A program made the position numbers and the translations under genes. The notes under the pieces were generated by a model. That model saw only the letters and a list, made by a program, of their open reading frames with translations, had not been told where the DNA came from and made no database searches. A stretch of DNA of 29,853 nt from a virus, in the IMG/VR virus record IMGVR_UViG_3300044986_000573, positions 1-29,853 of that record. One strand, 5' to 3'. Positions 5,098 through 28,820 of the stretch are shown piece after piece; within the stretch, counting starts at the first letter, position 1, and the number at the start of each line of letters is the position of its first letter.

Positions 5098-7092
5098 ATG
5101 TCTGACGAAAACCCTCTGCGCCCGATAGCCAAGCGCTGGCTGGAGTGCATCAAGCAGGGAGAGAAGCACAAGAAGGTCTTTTCGGACGATGCCAAGGAGG
5201 CCATGGGCTTCTACTCGTCCGACCCGAACGCCATGTGGGCCAACGAGCATGCGCGTGGCGAGCGGGGCTACAACAAGGGCATTGACCCGCCGCCGTTCCG
5301 GATGGTTGTGAACCGTGTTTTTGAGGCCGTCACGCTCTTCGGCTCGGTCATCCACCACCGGAACCCCCAGCGGACTGTGACGGCCAAGGAGTACCCGGTC
5401 ATCGGGCCGGCGCTCCTGGGCGTGCAGCCGCAGCCTCCCGTGCCGCAGATGGGCCCTGATGGCCAGCCGATCATCGGCCCAGACGGCCAGCCGGTGATGA
5501 TGCCGGACCCGATGATGATGGCCTACCAGCAGGCCGTTGAGCAGCAGGGCATGCTGTATGAGCGGCGCAAGCTCATCGCCAGGCTGCTGGAAGACTACCT
5601 GAACTACACGCCCAATGAACTGGATCTCAAGCGGCACACCCGCAAGGTGGTCGATGAGGCGTTCATCAAGGGCGCGGGCGTGTGGTGGCATGAGCTGTAC
5701 CAGCCGCCCGGCTCGGCAGTCAGGTTTGCCGGATCCTTCTACGATTCCATCGACAACCTTGTCTGGGATCCGGATGCTGATGAGTTTGAGGATATCCGCT
5801 GGGTTGCCCGTAAGCGGATCCAGCCCATCGATGAGGTGTCCGCCAAGTTCGGCTTGTCCCGAGAGGACATGAAGGGGCACATCGAATCCTACTCTTCCCG
5901 CGCCGACCAGGGCGACCGCGGCTACGAACACAAGAAGCGTACGGGCAAGACCAACGACCTCATCTGCTACTGGGAGATTTACTCCAAGACCGGCTTTGGG
6001 GATCGGCTGAAGGACGCCGAGAAGGACTTGCGTGGCAAGTTCGATGCTCTTGGCCCCAACTGCTACATCGTTGTGGCCGAAGGCGTGGACTTTCCGCTCA
6101 ACGCTCCGCCGGCCATGTTGCAGGAAGAGGTGGACGAGTCGGGTGTCCCGCAGTCCATGTTCATGTCATGCCAGTGGCCGATCCCGTTCTGGGCCGAGCC
6201 GAACGGCTGGCCGTTCACGCTTCTGGATTGGCATCGCCAGCCTGGATACTCCTGGCCGATCAGTCTGATCAAACCTGGCATCGGAGAGCTTCGCTTCATC
6301 AACTGGGCGATGTCCTTCCTAGCGACCAGGATCGCCACTTCCTCCCAGACGCTCATCGGTGTGGCGAAGGCCGCGGACCCAGATATCAAATCGAAGATCC
6401 TGGAGAAGAGCGAAGGCGGCTTTAACATCGTTGAAATCTCCGAAGCCGTGGGACGCTCGGTGAACGATGTGATCTCGGTCTTCCAGATGCCTGGTGTCAC
6501 CCAGGACATGTACAACATCATCCAGGCCGTTACGGAGATGTTCGACCGCCGCGTCGGGTTGACCGAGCTCATTTACGGTATGACCAGATCAGCCTTCAGA
6601 AGTGCAGCAGAAGCTGCCGTGAAGAGCGAGCAGATTTCGGTCAGGCCCGACGATTACGCCAATACGTTGGAGGACCGTCTGTCGGAGGTCGCCCGCAAAG
6701 AGGCCCTCATGGCCCGCTGGCTGATCTACCCGCAGGATGTCGAACCGCTCCTCGGCCCTTTGGCGGCGCAAGCCTGGGGCATGCACGTTCAGAACGAAGC
6801 CCCCGACAACATAGTCAGGGAATATTCGTACCGCGTGGAGGCCGGCTCGGCACGCAAGCCGAACATCGCCACCAAGACAGAGAACCTGAACACCTTCATG
6901 CAGATCATCGCCCCCGTCTCCCAGGGGCTGATGCAGTCCGGCAGGCCGGAAATCTTCAACGCCATGCTCACCACCTGGGGCAAGGTCAACCAGATGGACG
7001 TTGCGGAGTTCCTTGTCCCGCCGCCGCCTCCCCCGCCCCCAGGCCCGCCTCCAGGCCCAGAAGCACCTCCCGAAGCCCCTCCAGCCCAATAG
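5098..7092 (+). CDS. Portal protein
   Basis: This 664-residue protein has the size and position of a podovirus-type portal, the dodecameric ring through which DNA enters and leaves the capsid. Supporting features are an early helical clip/wing region, a beta-rich middle (FYDSIDNLVWDPDADEFED, then IRWVARKRIQPIDEV, about 212-248), the long helical stem region with DWHRQPGYSWPISLIKPG (about 378-395), and a crown-like segment ending in TELIYGMTRSAFRSAAEA (about 490-508). Two extras stand out: a low-complexity insert with two GPDGQP units near 119-134, and a proline-rich tail from about 643 to the end. The start is the ATG after AGGAGA (5088-5093). A capsid gene would normally follow closely; it does not. 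Confidence 0.85.
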   Translation: MSDENPLRPIAKRWLECIKQGEKHKKVFSDDAKEAMGFYSSDPNAMWANEHARGERGYNKGIDPPPFRMVVNRVFEAVTLFGSVIHHRNPQRTVTAKEYPVIGPALLGVQPQPPVPQMGPDGQPIIGPDGQPVMMPDPMMMAYQQAVEQQGMLYERRKLIARLLEDYLNYTPNELDLKRHTRKVVDEAFIKGAGVWWHELYQPPGSAVRFAGSFYDSIDNLVWDPDADEFEDIRWVARKRIQPIDEVSAKFGLSREDMKGHIESYSSRADQGDRGYEHKKRTGKTNDLICYWEIYSKTGFGDRLKDAEKDLRGKFDALGPNCYIVVAEGVDFPLNAPPAMLQEEVDESGVPQSMFMSCQWPIPFWAEPNGWPFTLLDWHRQPGYSWPISLIKPGIGELRFINWAMSFLATRIATSSQTLIGVAKAADPDIKSKILEKSEGGFNIVEISEAVGRSVNDVISVFQMPGVTQDMYNIIQAVTEMFDRRVGLTELIYGMTRSAFRSAAEAAVKSEQISVRPDDYANTLEDRLSEVARKEALMARWLIYPQDVEPLLGPLAAQAWGMHVQNEAPDNIVREYSYRVEAGSARKPNIATKTENLNTFMQIIAPVSQGLMQSGRPEIFNAMLTTWGKVNQMDVAEFLVPPPPPPPPGPPPGPEAPPEAPPAQ

Positions 7093-23683: not shown

Positions 23684-24544
23684 ATGGACATCGATGTTTC
23701 TAACGGGCCGGTGAAGGTCATCGGCATGGCGAGTAGTGCCTACCACTCGCTCAAGGCGTTCGACAGCCGGTCATTCCTGCTAGCTGTCCTCAAGGGCGGT
23801 GGCGAGGCCCAGCAGTGGCTGGACCAGGGCTATCCCCTGTTCACGGGCAACTCGGCCACCAGGCGTGGCGGGGAGTTCGATGAGATCGTCATGGGCCTGT
23901 GTGCCGGGAAGACCTTCGACTCCCTGGTCTGCATCCCGCCGGATGAGGTGCTGGGGGCCAACGGCTCCCGCAGCACCAAGGCATACCGGGAGTGGGAGGC
24001 GGCCCAGACCGGCATCTGCTGCACGGCGGATCAGGCGTGGGTCTACAGGAGGATGGTCGAAAGCCTGGAGGCCAACGGTGCCGCCAAGGCGTTGATGGAC
24101 CAGACCTCCGAGACGCAGTTGTCAGTCTTCTGGCAGGACGAGCATGGACACCTTCTCAAGGTGCGTCCGGACGGCGTGACCCCGGAACTGTGGTGGGATC
24201 TGAAGACAACATCGGCTCCTTGGGATCGGCTGTACCGCAGCGTCTTTGACTACGGCTATGCGGAGCAGCAGTGGCTGTACTGCCGCGGTGCGGAACAGGT
24301 CGGTTACCAGCCGTTCCGCATGCCGTTCGTCTTCGTTCAGACCATGCCGCCCTATGCGTGTCATGTGTTCTATCTGCCCGATGACTTGGTGGAGGAGGCT
24401 GGCCAGCGGTTGGTCAGCGTGATGGAGGAGGTTCGGCTGCGTCGTTCGACCGGCATCTACATGCCCGCTGATCACGGAGAGATCACGGAGCTTGAGATCC
24501 CGCGTTGGGCCCGCGGCAAGCAGGAGGAGGTGGTGATCATATGA
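23684..24544 (+). CDS. RecE-like PD-(D/E)XK exonuclease
   Basis: This 286-residue protein starts at an ATG after GGAGGTG. It has the core of RecB/RecE-family phage recombination exonucleases: an N-terminal Y-H-x2-K-A-F-DSRS segment (about 20-30) like the conserved start of DUF3799/exonuclease VIII proteins, an ETQLSVFW strand (143-150), K159 in the LLKVRPDGV strand with R161-P-D163, the D172-L-K174-T-T motif, and a Tyr/Gln helix (DYGYAEQQWLYC, about 189-200). Such enzymes digest one strand of a duplex from its end and hand the single strand to an annealing protein. The next gene is that partner and overlaps it by ATGA. The GGEFDE at 62-67 sits where family members have a G-x-x-x-H helix, here without the His. 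Confidence 0.8.
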   Translation: MDIDVSNGPVKVIGMASSAYHSLKAFDSRSFLLAVLKGGGEAQQWLDQGYPLFTGNSATRRGGEFDEIVMGLCAGKTFDSLVCIPPDEVLGANGSRSTKAYREWEAAQTGICCTADQAWVYRRMVESLEANGAAKALMDQTSETQLSVFWQDEHGHLLKVRPDGVTPELWWDLKTTSAPWDRLYRSVFDYGYAEQQWLYCRGAEQVGYQPFRMPFVFVQTMPPYACHVFYLPDDLVEEAGQRLVSVMEEVRLRRSTGIYMPADHGEITELEIPRWARGKQEEVVII

Positions 24545-25567: not shown

Positions 25568-25831
25568 ATGAGGACAGGAATGGTTTGCATGGCACGCGAG
25601 TACATCGAAGACCCATTGTTTGATGCGGAAGACACGGACATCTGCCGGTCGCTGATCGAAGCGGCGTGTGCGTTTGAGTCTGCCCTGACCGAACTCCAGG
25701 CCGAGACGGGCTGGCTGTTCTCCGGGGAAGTCAGCCGTCGCATCACGGAGCTCCTGGGGGATCGCCCTCCGGAACTGCTGTCGGATTCTGAGGTGTGGTT
25801 TGTCATCGGCGGGCTTGTTGACAGGGACTGA
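25568..25831 (+). CDS. Small acidic protein before the helicase
   Basis: This is an 87-residue protein, or 80 residues if the ATG at 25589 is used, which has AGGA eight bases upstream; the ATG at 25568 is preceded by CGGAGAC. It is acidic and mostly helical (EDPLFDAEDTDICRSLIEAA, then FESALTELQAETGWLFSGEV), ending in LLSDSEVWFVIGGLVDRD. I do not recognise a family. It ends one base before the helicase start, so the two are probably co-translated. It may be a regulator or partner of the helicase, on position alone. Confidence 0.65.
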   Translation: MRTGMVCMAREYIEDPLFDAEDTDICRSLIEAACAFESALTELQAETGWLFSGEVSRRITELLGDRPPELLSDSEVWFVIGGLVDRD

Positions 25832-25832
25832 G

Positions 25833-27335
25833 ATGCAACTGCGTGATTACCAATCCGAGATCGTAGACGCTCACCTGCGTGCGCTCGCAGATGGGGTTCG
25901 CTCTACGCTAACGGGCCTGTTCACCGGAGCTGGGAAGACGGTGGTGTTCGTTGAGACGGCCAACCGCATCTCTGGCCGGACGCTCATCCTCGCCCCGCTC
26001 CGGGAACTGGTCTGGCAGGCCGTGGACAAGGTGCGCGACATCACGGGGGCCGATCCCGGGATGGAGATGGCCGAGTACCGCTCCCAGGAGGACGAGTGGT
26101 GGTCGCCAAAGGTCATCGTCGGGTGCAAGCAGACGCTGATCCGCGGTCGCTACAAGAAGTTCACCGACATCCGGCTGGTGATTGTGGACGAAGCCCACCT
26201 CCAGTTCTCACCGGCCTGCCTTGAGATGTTCCGCTGGTTCCAGGAGCGTGGGGCGATGGTCGCAGGGTTCACTGCGACTCCCTTCCGCATGGACGGGACG
26301 GCGATGCGGGACTTCTACGAGCATGAAATCTGCAACCGCGATGTTCAGTGGGCCATCGAACAGGGGTGGTCGGCTCCCTATGTGTGCAAGCTGGCTCGCG
26401 TTCAGGAATTGGATCTGTCTGGCGTCACTGTCTCGGGTGATGACTTCAACCAAAAGCAGCTCCAGCAGGCCGTGGAAAAGGAAGCCAACCTCCACCGTAT
26501 CGCCCTGATTACCCAGGAAGAGATGGAGGGGCCGACCGTTGTGTTCACGCCATCGGTCGCCTCGGCCAAGGGTGTCTGTCACTACCTGACCAACAACTAC
26601 GGCATCCCTGCGGTCTATGTGTACGGCACCCAGCCCGAGGAGGAACGGCAAGATGCTATCCGGCGATTTAAGACTGGAGAGGCGAAGGTTCTTGTCAATT
26701 GCCAAGTTGTGGCCGTTGGCTTCGATCATCCGCCGACCGCCACCCTCATCCTCGGAAGGCCCACAAAGTCCCGATCTTTCTGGTTGCAATGCGTGGGACG
26801 AGCCACTCGTCCTCTCCCCGGAGTTGTGGACTACGAAGGCTCGGATCCATCCGGCCGTATTGCACGGATCGCAGGATCTGGAAAGCCACGTTTCAAGATT
26901 GTCGATTGCACTGATGCAAGCCTGGACCACCGACTTGTCACAGCCGTGGACATGTTCTGCACGGCCGACAAGGAAGTGCGCCAGGTCATCAAGAAGGCTG
27001 CCGCTCAAGCCGCCGAGCCGCTGACCCAGGAGCAGATCGACGCCCTGGCCCAGCAGGAACTGGAGCGCCGGCTGATTGCCCAGGACATCGAAGCCCGCCG
27101 CAAGCGGATGCAGGGTCAAGCGACGGGCCGTCTGTTTTCCGAGGAGGTGCAGATCGGCTCGGGTAAGCGGTGCGTCGGAACGTATGTGAACCCGCTGAAA
27201 GGCAAGTTCGCCGGCCGCACGCTCAACACGTTGCCTGATTGGTATCTGCGTTGGGCTGCCGTTCACACCAAAGGTTGGGTGAGCAGTCTGTTTCGCAAGG
27301 AGAGGGATAGGAGACATGGCAAGCAAACGGCCTGA
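25833..27335 (+). CDS. Superfamily 2 DNA helicase with DUF3820-like C-terminal domain
   Basis: This 500-residue protein has the Q-like start LRDYQSEIVDA, Walker A TGAGKT (31-36), LILAPLREL (motif Ia, about 51-59), Walker B DEAH (119-122), TATP (motif III, 147-150), a second RecA domain with VVFTPSVASA (about 236-245), VLVNCQVVAVGFDHP (motif V, about 286-300) and QCVGRATRP (motif VI, 319-327). These define an ATP-driven SF2 helicase of the RecG/UvsW/RadD-like kind found in phage replication and recombination regions. Residues about 457-475 (GKFAGRTLNTLPDWYLRWA) match the small DUF3820 pattern (G-K-x2-G-x2-L-x2-x-P-x2-Y-L-x-W), an unusual fusion. Between them is a Lys/Arg/Gln coiled helix. It starts at the ATG right after the preceding stop. 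Confidence 0.9.
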   Translation: MQLRDYQSEIVDAHLRALADGVRSTLTGLFTGAGKTVVFVETANRISGRTLILAPLRELVWQAVDKVRDITGADPGMEMAEYRSQEDEWWSPKVIVGCKQTLIRGRYKKFTDIRLVIVDEAHLQFSPACLEMFRWFQERGAMVAGFTATPFRMDGTAMRDFYEHEICNRDVQWAIEQGWSAPYVCKLARVQELDLSGVTVSGDDFNQKQLQQAVEKEANLHRIALITQEEMEGPTVVFTPSVASAKGVCHYLTNNYGIPAVYVYGTQPEEERQDAIRRFKTGEAKVLVNCQVVAVGFDHPPTATLILGRPTKSRSFWLQCVGRATRPLPGVVDYEGSDPSGRIARIAGSGKPRFKIVDCTDASLDHRLVTAVDMFCTADKEVRQVIKKAAAQAAEPLTQEQIDALAQQELERRLIAQDIEARRKRMQGQATGRLFSEEVQIGSGKRCVGTYVNPLKGKFAGRTLNTLPDWYLRWAAVHTKGWVSSLFRKERDRRHGKQTA

Positions 27336-27642
27336 CGTTCTCCTGGATGACACGCTCCAGGAGGTCTTGGATTACTTCGATGTGGATCACGTTTTCCCCA
27401 CAACTTTCATCAAGGAGGAGAGGAAAGATGGTTGGTTTCGCAGACTACGAAGTCGAATTGCGGCATGCTTTGGCGCACGCCCCAGAGCTGAAGCGTCGGT
27501 GTCTGGTGAACGGTCAGCCAGCGGCCCATGTGGCCCGGCTCCTGGGGCTGCGGGCCCAGCAGACGCGGGGGGCAGTGCGGCTGCTGAAGCGGCTGAACTA
27601 CATGCCGTCGCCCGAGCGTCTCGCCCTGGTGGTCATGCGTGA
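27316..27642 (+). CDS. Small ORF overlapping helicase end and next gene
   Basis: An ATG with a good ribosome site (ATAGGAGAC) lies inside the helicase 3' end. The first 38 residues (ASKRPDVLLDDTLQEVLDYF, DVDHVFPTTFIKEERKD) look like real protein: acidic, amphipathic and non-repetitive. After about residue 39 it runs into Arg/Ala/Gly/Pro-rich sequence typical of the wrong frame of a GC-rich gene, and it overlaps the next gene by 215 bases. Either the true product is 108 residues with an unconstrained tail, or the N-terminal part belongs in frame with the following gene through a one-base change near 27420-27435. Confidence 0.45.
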   Translation: MASKRPDVLLDDTLQEVLDYFDVDHVFPTTFIKEERKDGWFRRLRSRIAACFGARPRAEASVSGERSASGPCGPAPGAAGPADAGGSAAAEAAELHAVARASRPGGHA

Positions 27643-27946
27643 CTGGGGCTTGGATGACGCCGACATCGCAGAGATTTTCTCCCGGTCGAAGCGTTGGGCC
27701 ACGGCCGTCCGCGACAACGCGGATGAGATAAAGGCGAACGAGCCCATCCCGGAACGCCTGGAGTTCCTGGACTGCGGGCTTCAGCGAGACGATGTGCCCC
27801 CGGAGGAGTTGTACAAGCGCGCGGCGGAGCTGCGTGCTGCGGGTGTGATCCAGGGCTGCATGGTTGGTCAGCCGCGCGTGCCGGTGGCCATGCATGTCTA
27901 CTCCTTTTGGAATAACTATGCGCTCGTTCCAGTCGGCACTCGCTAA
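27428..27946 (+). CDS. Helix-turn-helix-type protein of unknown role
   Basis: The ATG at 27428 follows AAGGAGGAGAGG and gives 172 residues; longer in-frame starts add Arg/Ser-rich sequence that looks spurious. The first 60 residues are helical with an HTH-like run (LVNGQPAAHVARLLGLRAQQ, TRGAVRLLKRLNYM, about 25-59), followed by a second one (ADIAEIFSRSKRWATAVRDN, about 79-98), where DADIAEIFSRS resembles a recognition-helix step. The C-terminal part contains PPEELYKRAAELRAAGVIQG. Two HTH-like units suggest a DNA-binding or sigma-like/regulatory protein, but I cannot name a family. It overlaps the next gene by 29 bases. Confidence 0.65.
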   Translation: MVGFADYEVELRHALAHAPELKRRCLVNGQPAAHVARLLGLRAQQTRGAVRLLKRLNYMPSPERLALVVMRDWGLDDADIAEIFSRSKRWATAVRDNADEIKANEPIPERLEFLDCGLQRDDVPPEELYKRAAELRAAGVIQGCMVGQPRVPVAMHVYSFWNNYALVPVGTR

Positions 27947-28535
27947 CGGCCAGAAGGCTGAACGCAAGTGGGTGGAGGCGATGCGGGCCAGCGGACGGTC
28001 GGTCGCTCACGGCAAGAAGATCGTTGTCAAGAAGCATTGCAGGAAAACTGGCCATGTCGAAACCCCTGACGCCCTCGGGCTGTTCTCCATTGAGATCAAG
28101 GAGCGGAGCCTGTCGTTCGATGATCCGGAGTCCTATCCCTACGACACGGTCTTTGTTGATGACCTGCGCGGCATGGGGATGGAGTCCACGCAGAACCTCA
28201 TCTACGTGTACCTGTCGAAGCCCACGGGCAAGTGGGTGTGGCTCACCATCCTGGACCGTGACGAGAGCTGGACAGAGGCCGTTACGTATGACCGCGGCCG
28301 GGGGCATGAGGTGCCGGTCCTCGTCGCTCCGAAAGCGCATCTCCGTACGGCCGACTCACTGATCAATTTGTTGTACCCGCACGCCTATCTGGACCTAGTA
28401 GATGGACCAACCGAAGCCTTCCTTGCAGGAGGAGGAGAGACTGAAGAGCGAGAACGATACGTTGCGAAGACGCATCCGGACGTTGGAGGCCGAACTGCAA
28501 AGGCTCCAGCAAAAACTCGTAAGCACATGGGGTGA
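27918..28535 (+). CDS. Probable PD-(D/E)XK nuclease
   Basis: I use the ATG at 27918, because its product begins FQSALANGQKAERKWVEAMR, typical of the first helix of this nuclease fold with a Glu (E15); longer in-frame starts overlap the preceding gene in poor sequence. The core reads ETPDALGLFSIEIKERS with P50-D51 and E59-I-K61, the classic PD-(D/E)XK layout, followed by YPYDTVFVDDL and a beta strand LIYVYLSKPTGKWVWLTIL. The product is about 205 residues. It may act as a resolvase or repair-type endonuclease in the phage DNA metabolism block. The last 45 residues (from GPTEAFLAGG) are Gly/Glu/Arg/Ala-rich and overlap the leucine-zipper gene at 28402 in another frame, so they may be under little constraint of their own. 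Confidence 0.65.
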   Translation: MRSFQSALANGQKAERKWVEAMRASGRSVAHGKKIVVKKHCRKTGHVETPDALGLFSIEIKERSLSFDDPESYPYDTVFVDDLRGMGMESTQNLIYVYLSKPTGKWVWLTILDRDESWTEAVTYDRGRGHEVPVLVAPKAHLRTADSLINLLYPHAYLDLVDGPTEAFLAGGGETEERERYVAKTHPDVGGRTAKAPAKTRKHMG

Positions 28536-28542
28536 AATGTAA
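28402..28542 (+). CDS. Overlapping 46-residue leucine-zipper mini-gene
   Basis: A short frame inside the 3' end of the nuclease gene encodes MDQPKPSLQEEERLKSENDT, then LRRRIRTLEAELQRLQQKLV, then STWGEM. Leucines fall at 14, 21, 28 and 35 (d positions), with N18, I25, L32 and L39 at the a positions, a textbook dimeric leucine zipper including the a-position Asn. Two in-frame TAG stops lie directly before the ATG, fixing the start, and the stop TAA overlaps the next ATG as TAATG, the junction style used elsewhere in this genome. No Shine-Dalgarno site is seen, so translation may be coupled to the nuclease. No signal peptide or lipobox, so not an Rz1-like lipoprotein. The protein could dimerise or bind a partner; its role is unknown. 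Confidence 0.55.
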   Translation: MDQPKPSLQEEERLKSENDTLRRRIRTLEAELQRLQQKLVSTWGEM

Positions 28543-28820
28543 TGTTTGGCAAACAAGTGATCTGGGAAAACATTCTGAAGTTCCGCACCTTCAACCATGT
28601 CATTCGGACCTGGGTGGAGCGGAAAGAGCATGGCCCGTCGCACGGCGATGACATGGCCAAGATGCAAGCCTGGGTGGCAGCCAACCGTCAGCGGCTGGAC
28701 ATGCTTCCGGGAGAGGACATTGCCAAGGAGATGGCCAAGGAGTTCCCGCGGATCTCCGCCATCGAAGTGATGAACGGCTTCGCCAATGAAGGCTGCCTCC
28801 TGTACCCGAGGTGGCCATGA
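28542..28820 (+). CDS. Small protein of unknown function
   Basis: This 92-residue protein starts at the TAATG overlap, with GGGGTGA a few bases upstream. It is helical and basic-aromatic at the N terminus (FGKQVIWENILKFRTFNHVI), then has a Met/Ala helix (DDMAKMQAWVAANRQRLDML) and a segment EDIAKEMAKEFPRISAIEVM that resembles a helix-turn-helix step (I-A-K-E-M-A-K-E...ISAIEV). It might be a small DNA-binding protein. No family is recognised. It overlaps the next gene by 4 bases. Confidence 0.7.
   Translation: MFGKQVIWENILKFRTFNHVIRTWVERKEHGPSHGDDMAKMQAWVAANRQRLDMLPGEDIAKEMAKEFPRISAIEVMNGFANEGCLLYPRWP

Follow-up and report, generated by a model that had tools for sequence, protein, structure and literature searches.

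A 46-codon frame inside the end of a nuclease gene

Does a short reading frame that runs out of frame through the end of a nuclease gene encode a protein of its own, and what would such a protein serve? The question arises in the window analyzed here, a virus record of 29,853 bases that encodes portal, structural, exonuclease VIII and helicase homologues and is therefore read as a tailed-phage genome fragment. The frame, which we call the zipper ORF (28402..28542; this and all other features given here are on the plus strand), comprises 46 codons plus TAA, lies in the +1 frame of the nuclease ORF and translates to MDQPKPSLQEEERLKSENDTLRRRIRTLEAELQRLQQKLVSTWGEM*. A preliminary description had claimed for it perfect heptads, stops just before its ATG and a joint with the next gene, and all of these were recovered: the eight residues are in place (L14, L21, L28 and L35 at d; N18, I25, L32 and L39 at a), TAG TAG at 28396-28401 stands in the zipper frame immediately 5' of the ATG, and at the TAATG junction (28540..28544) the zipper stop overlaps the start of the next ORF. 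We consider that the best explanation of the locus as a whole, with a probability of roughly 0.6, is a separately translated gene for a dimeric coiled-coil protein that serves a helicase-nuclease cassette.

The nuclease ORF (27918..28535) encodes 205 aa and has no match in Pfam, PHROG or PADLOC. Its candidate catalytic residues, P50-D51, E59 and K61, are invariant in 22/22 aligned homologues. The AF2 model gives a weak match to the fusellovirus nuclease D212 (PDB 2w8m; E 0.01, probability 0.92, 8% identity), which is the nearest solved fold, and its best match among BFVD viral proteins has an E value of 8e-9, with one annotated endonuclease at 0.0027; residues 33-54 of the model, containing P50-D51, have pLDDT below 50. 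From the invariant residues and the weak predicted fold match, the protein likely belongs to the PD-(D/E)XK nucleases. The overlap (28402..28535; 134 nt) covers nuclease residues 162-205, the C-terminal tail, of which residues 172-205 are predicted to be disordered (pLDDT below 50). Default gene-callers would probably discard the zipper ORF, given its shortness and the 134-nt same-strand overlap.

The zipper frame is kept among diverged relatives

Relatives were gathered by searching with the nuclease, with nuclease alignments and with the zipper itself, which gave 27 distinct sequences bearing the overlap, the window and 26 further relatives. Identity to the window falls to about 54% in the nuclease and to 41% in the zipper. 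The preliminary description had named relatives with stops in the zipper frame as evidence against an overlapping mini-gene; none was present, and the frame is intact with an ATG or GTG start in all 27 sequences, at 41 to 49 codons. The length is 46 codons in 23/27, 45 in two, 41 in locus L033 and 49 in locus L061. L033 carries a 12-nt deletion that keeps both frames, shifts the heptad register and leaves a GTG start one codon on, and in L061 the original ATG is gone and an in-frame ATG upstream stands in its place.

Across relatives the heptad leucines are mostly kept and the C-terminal Trp-Gly is kept, and M1, E10, L21, L28, W43 and G44 are invariant in a 21-row alignment. The zipper ATG stems from the codon of nuclease Asp162, which is GAT in 20/21 sequences, whereas in the rest of the nuclease gene GAT accounts for 86 of 239 Asp codons. 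At the other end, TGGGGTGA (28528..28535) encodes zipper Trp43-Gly44, contains the nuclease stop and is Shine-Dalgarno-like for the next ORF; it is invariant in 17/17 sequences of alignment A6. An ATG or GTG overlaps the zipper stop in 26/27 sequences, including cases in which an unrelated gene follows.

One relative lies on a contig of a Pirellulaceae MAG, and on this one case a planctomycete host for the window phage is possible; a search of 392 Planctomycetota genomes gave nothing beyond that already known MAG. Annotated phages gave no DNA match and a single protein match, in Thermus phage MN1, and the plasmid search gave no match.

Both frames of the overlap are under purifying selection

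When the nuclease protein was held fixed and its codons were shuffled synonymously, no more than 0.06% of shuffles at 20/22 loci had at least as many hydrophobic heptad residues as the natural sequence. The exceptions were 0.36% in L029 and 2.2% in L033, where the 12-nt deletion shifts the register. Codon shuffles ignore ancestry, and the claim of selection is therefore carried by the tree-based tests.

Parsimony changes, mapped onto a nuclease-core tree, amounted to 6.87 per nuclease third position in the core, 4.26 in the overlap and 3.50 in the overlap's last third, where nuclease first positions, the mostly silent zipper third positions, were the fastest (6.58 changes per site). Sorted by class, distances were 0.29 for changes that alter both frames (NN), 0.65 for those silent in the nuclease only (SN) and 0.77 for those silent in the zipper only (NS; NN/NS = 0.37), compared with a core dS of 1.74. 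Therefore, purifying selection acts on both frames. This comparison of synonymous change is the one that the preliminary description had put forward, and selection restricted to the nuclease frame, which it had held to speak against a mini-gene, is not what it reveals.

In simulations, the window tail was evolved along the tree under nuclease-only constraint with rates calibrated on the core. Intact zipper frames then averaged 2 to 4 with a maximum of 11/24, against 24/24 observed, and at most 3.1 of 6 hydrophobic heptad sites were retained, against 5.9 observed; even when the rate was cut to one third, no more than 22/24 zipper frames stayed intact. The mirror simulation, with zipper-only constraint at calibrated rates, left at most 15/24 nuclease frames open, against 24 observed. 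The ratio NN/NS, the slowing of third positions and the simulations agree that purifying selection in the zipper frame exceeds what the nuclease frame imposes.

The pattern might nevertheless be a by-product of nuclease codons, with their Glu/Arg-rich tail, and of base composition, with no product made from a frame that is open by chance. Such frames are common here: the +1 frame is also open in other parts of the nuclease gene, in up to 21/24 sequences, and it is therefore the heptads, the constancy of length and the pattern of substitutions that carry the weight. The near-fixed length, the start that is retained or relocated, heptads far above the synonymous-shuffle null, the slowed synonymous change in the nuclease and the simulations together make a chance frame extremely unlikely, and we regard the zipper ORF as almost certainly a real gene.

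The cassette contains a second overlap, in which orf27316 (27316..27642; 108 aa in the window) extends into orf27428 (27428..27946) in a different frame. The N-terminal core of orf27316 is conserved (FDVxHVFPxTFIKEEKKDGFWKRLWxRIAxCFGxRR), and its out-of-frame tail diverges, with end points scattered from 53 to 269 nt beyond where the orf27428 match begins. This tail is apparently an unconstrained frame and an internal contrast to the zipper; it illustrates how readily such frames occur here, but its length varies by more than 200 nt where that of the zipper is nearly fixed.

The nuclease frame is open across the overlap in every locus. Its tail keeps a GGG and an E-ER-RYVAKT-P stretch in most relatives, a retention that exceeds the zipper-imposed level in a shuffle ignoring ancestry, and nuclease first positions in this conserved part change as slowly as in the core. 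The end of the tail varies freely and differs in L026, L031, L032 and L035-L038. The constraint on the overlap is led by the nuclease in the 5' part and by the zipper in the 3' part. The suggestion that the nuclease frame in this stretch is unconstrained holds for the relaxed last third and fails for the first two thirds, which are constrained. Both zipper-less nucleases, in locus L034 and in Thermus phage MN1, stop at the point where other homologues continue into the tail; tail and zipper thus co-occur. The simplest reading of the sequences would be that one of the two frames arose on top of the other, in either order.

Translation signals and RNA structure

A weak Shine-Dalgarno-like match, GGA at 28391..28393, stands 8 nt before the zipper ATG; GGA is present there in most relatives and GGAG in some. 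No strong Shine-Dalgarno sequence was found before the zipper ATG in the window, where the duplex energy is -3.0 kcal/mol (random median, -2.6). The corresponding energies are -5.6 to -8.6 in L020, L027-L030, L032, L033 and L039, and in the window -6.0 is reached ahead of the next start at 28542. Under the proposed mechanism, ribosomes would initiate internally on the nuclease message to make the zipper.

If instead +1 ribosomal frameshifting joined the zipper to the nuclease as the C-terminal part of a fusion protein, the direction of the frame would fit, as would the lack of a stop shortly upstream of the ATG in L025, L026, L029 and L032. However, relatives keep the ATG or have a substitute close by, the window and several relatives have in-frame stops immediately ahead of the ATG, and no slippery site was recognized by eye, so that a fusion of this kind seems very improbable.

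An RNA element, or the site at which ribosomes bind for the next gene, could also account for the slow evolution of the overlap in place of a protein, and the invariance of TGGGGTGA, at a distance that suits the next start, would agree with this. But RNAalifold returned only -5.35 kcal/mol and 2 compensatory pairs in its search for conserved RNA structure, the whole overlap is constrained, its last third has the codon periodicity of the zipper frame, and the 12-nt deletion of L033 preserves both frames. We therefore give such a signal hardly any credence as the cause.

Predicted structure of the zipper protein

The 46-residue product would be almost wholly one amphipathic helix, with a short proline/serine-rich N-terminus and Trp-Gly near the C-terminus. 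AF2, run on the monomer, places the helix at residues 8-44 with a mean pLDDT of 95-98 over residues 11-40, and dimerization therefore rests on heptad rules. Parallel dimeric coiled coils have Leu at d and Ile, Leu or Asn at a. Over four heptads the d positions of the zipper are Leu, and its a positions are mostly Ile, Val, Leu or Asn. We may conclude that the protein, if made, is very probably a dimeric coiled coil, predicted to pair in parallel as two strands over about four heptads.

No convincing family was found for the zipper in Pfam, PHROG or PADLOC. The Pfam coiled-coil matches (Tropomyosin, HALZ, ZapB and YabA; E 0.002-0.09) all fall below the curated cut-offs and are read as shared composition rather than homology. 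A bZIP DNA-binding protein was considered and rejected; there is no basic region, only 13 residues precede L14 and these are Pro/Ser- and Glu-rich, and the Pfam bZIP_2 match (E 0.15) is below cut-off.

The conserved cassette and candidate partners

The zipper closes a conserved row of genes. It begins with a helicase (25800..27335; PHROG 16 DNA helicase, E 1.2e-71), syntenic in most loci, and continues with orf27316, with orf27428, which encodes a protein of 172 aa without a family match, and with the nuclease. The ORF, its conservation, selection on two frames and synteny come from the sequence, and from them we infer translation, dimerization and a partner. In the proposed mechanism, the zipper would serve this recombination-type helicase-nuclease cassette as a dimeric accessory or regulator, and would bind the nuclease, its disordered tail or another cassette protein.

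The downstream neighbour of the zipper varies. In the window it is orf28542 (28542..28820; 92 aa), which has no family match and is not constant among relatives. The zipper might be a partner or regulator of this product rather than of the upstream cassette, as the preliminary description had also allowed; the overlap of stop and start suggests coupled translation, and about half the loci have an orf28542 homologue downstream. However, no orf28542 homologue was found in L013-L015, L018-L021, L025, L026 or L031, and the zipper is kept there, which makes this an improbable account. Cassette and zipper stay together while the next gene varies, and a partner inside the cassette is therefore likelier than the next protein.

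L013, L014, L015 and L061, four loci in which no orf28542 homologue was found, share a short putative membrane protein (such as VSFHLLFIVSLIYLSVAIDQ...YAVANWGLMGMTK) encoded after the zipper.

Small phage proteins often bind host proteins, and the zipper might act on a host target in replication, transcription or defence and merely share its locus with the nuclease. In L034 the cassette survives without a zipper, a point against a role in the cassette and in line with a host target. Against it, all zipper loci are linked to the same cassette, and the zipper-only search, whose pattern required the WG end so that free copies lacking it would escape, gave neither a stand-alone zipper nor a nuclease-less locus among the loci examined; its two new contigs (L061 and L062) also bear the nuclease. 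A host target is accordingly possible but unlikely.

For a partner within the cassette, sequence and synteny would put the chances at about even. The leading single guess, a tentative one, is that the zipper may act on the nuclease itself, for example as a regulator or an oligomerization aid. It is doubtful whether the more specific version holds, in which the zipper dimer inhibits or activates the nuclease that it overlaps and the nuclease tail arose when an older zipper gene came to be read out of frame; if it were true, enzyme and regulator would be locked together by shared DNA, not by frame.

In L034, an ORF with HNH-endonuclease-like sequence, judged by eye (5498-5857 of that locus), starts at the nuclease stop and takes the position of tail and zipper. 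Possibly a mobile endonuclease replaced both there.

Relation to known systems

Lambda Rz and Rz1 are out-of-frame overlapping phage genes. Overlapping phage genes with selection in both frames are a known phenomenon (PMC8227390), and the phiX174 overlaps, as cited in that paper, likewise have a short gene in the second frame of another phage gene. The zipper and nuclease also show purifying selection in both frames, partly segregated along the overlap. They differ from phiX174 and from Rz/Rz1 in genes, fold and genome context, joining a recombination-type nuclease to a predicted coiled-coil protein. A description of such a pair was not found in the literature searched, most subscription journals being outside the search. 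The locus adds a well-supported hidden phage gene that occurs across many environmental viruses, and its more than two dozen diverged copies form a clean data set on how two frames share constraint.

In the Rpn system, a PD-(D/E)XK nuclease gene also yields a separately translated C-terminal protein, RpnS, that dimerizes by a helix and blocks the nuclease (PMC10327210). The likeness is a nuclease gene, here a likely one of this kind, that contains a small C-terminal gene, whose product is in our case predicted to be translated separately and to dimerize through a helix. RpnS is in frame with RpnL and a piece of the nuclease, whereas the zipper is in the +1 frame and is not; it is therefore not a member of Rpn/RpnS, though it could work alike, and by analogy Rpn/RpnS may be the nearest functional parallel. 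Should the zipper prove to control the nuclease, PD-(D/E)XK enzymes would have gene-within-gene regulators in out-of-frame as well as in-frame arrangements.

We know of no zipper gene at fusellovirus D212. The Thermus phage MN1 protein BDX35525.1 (L016:4950-5474) is a distant homologue of the nuclease core, with 29% identity over residues 4-152; its sequence stops short of the tail, and a zipper was not found at that locus. Its gene, annotated as a hypothetical protein, lies between DNA primase and ribonucleotide reductase, which links the nuclease to a replication module. In the window, an exonuclease VIII homologue at 23684-24544 (PHROG 412, E 9.6e-34) lies near the helicase-nuclease cassette, which suggests a recombination module.
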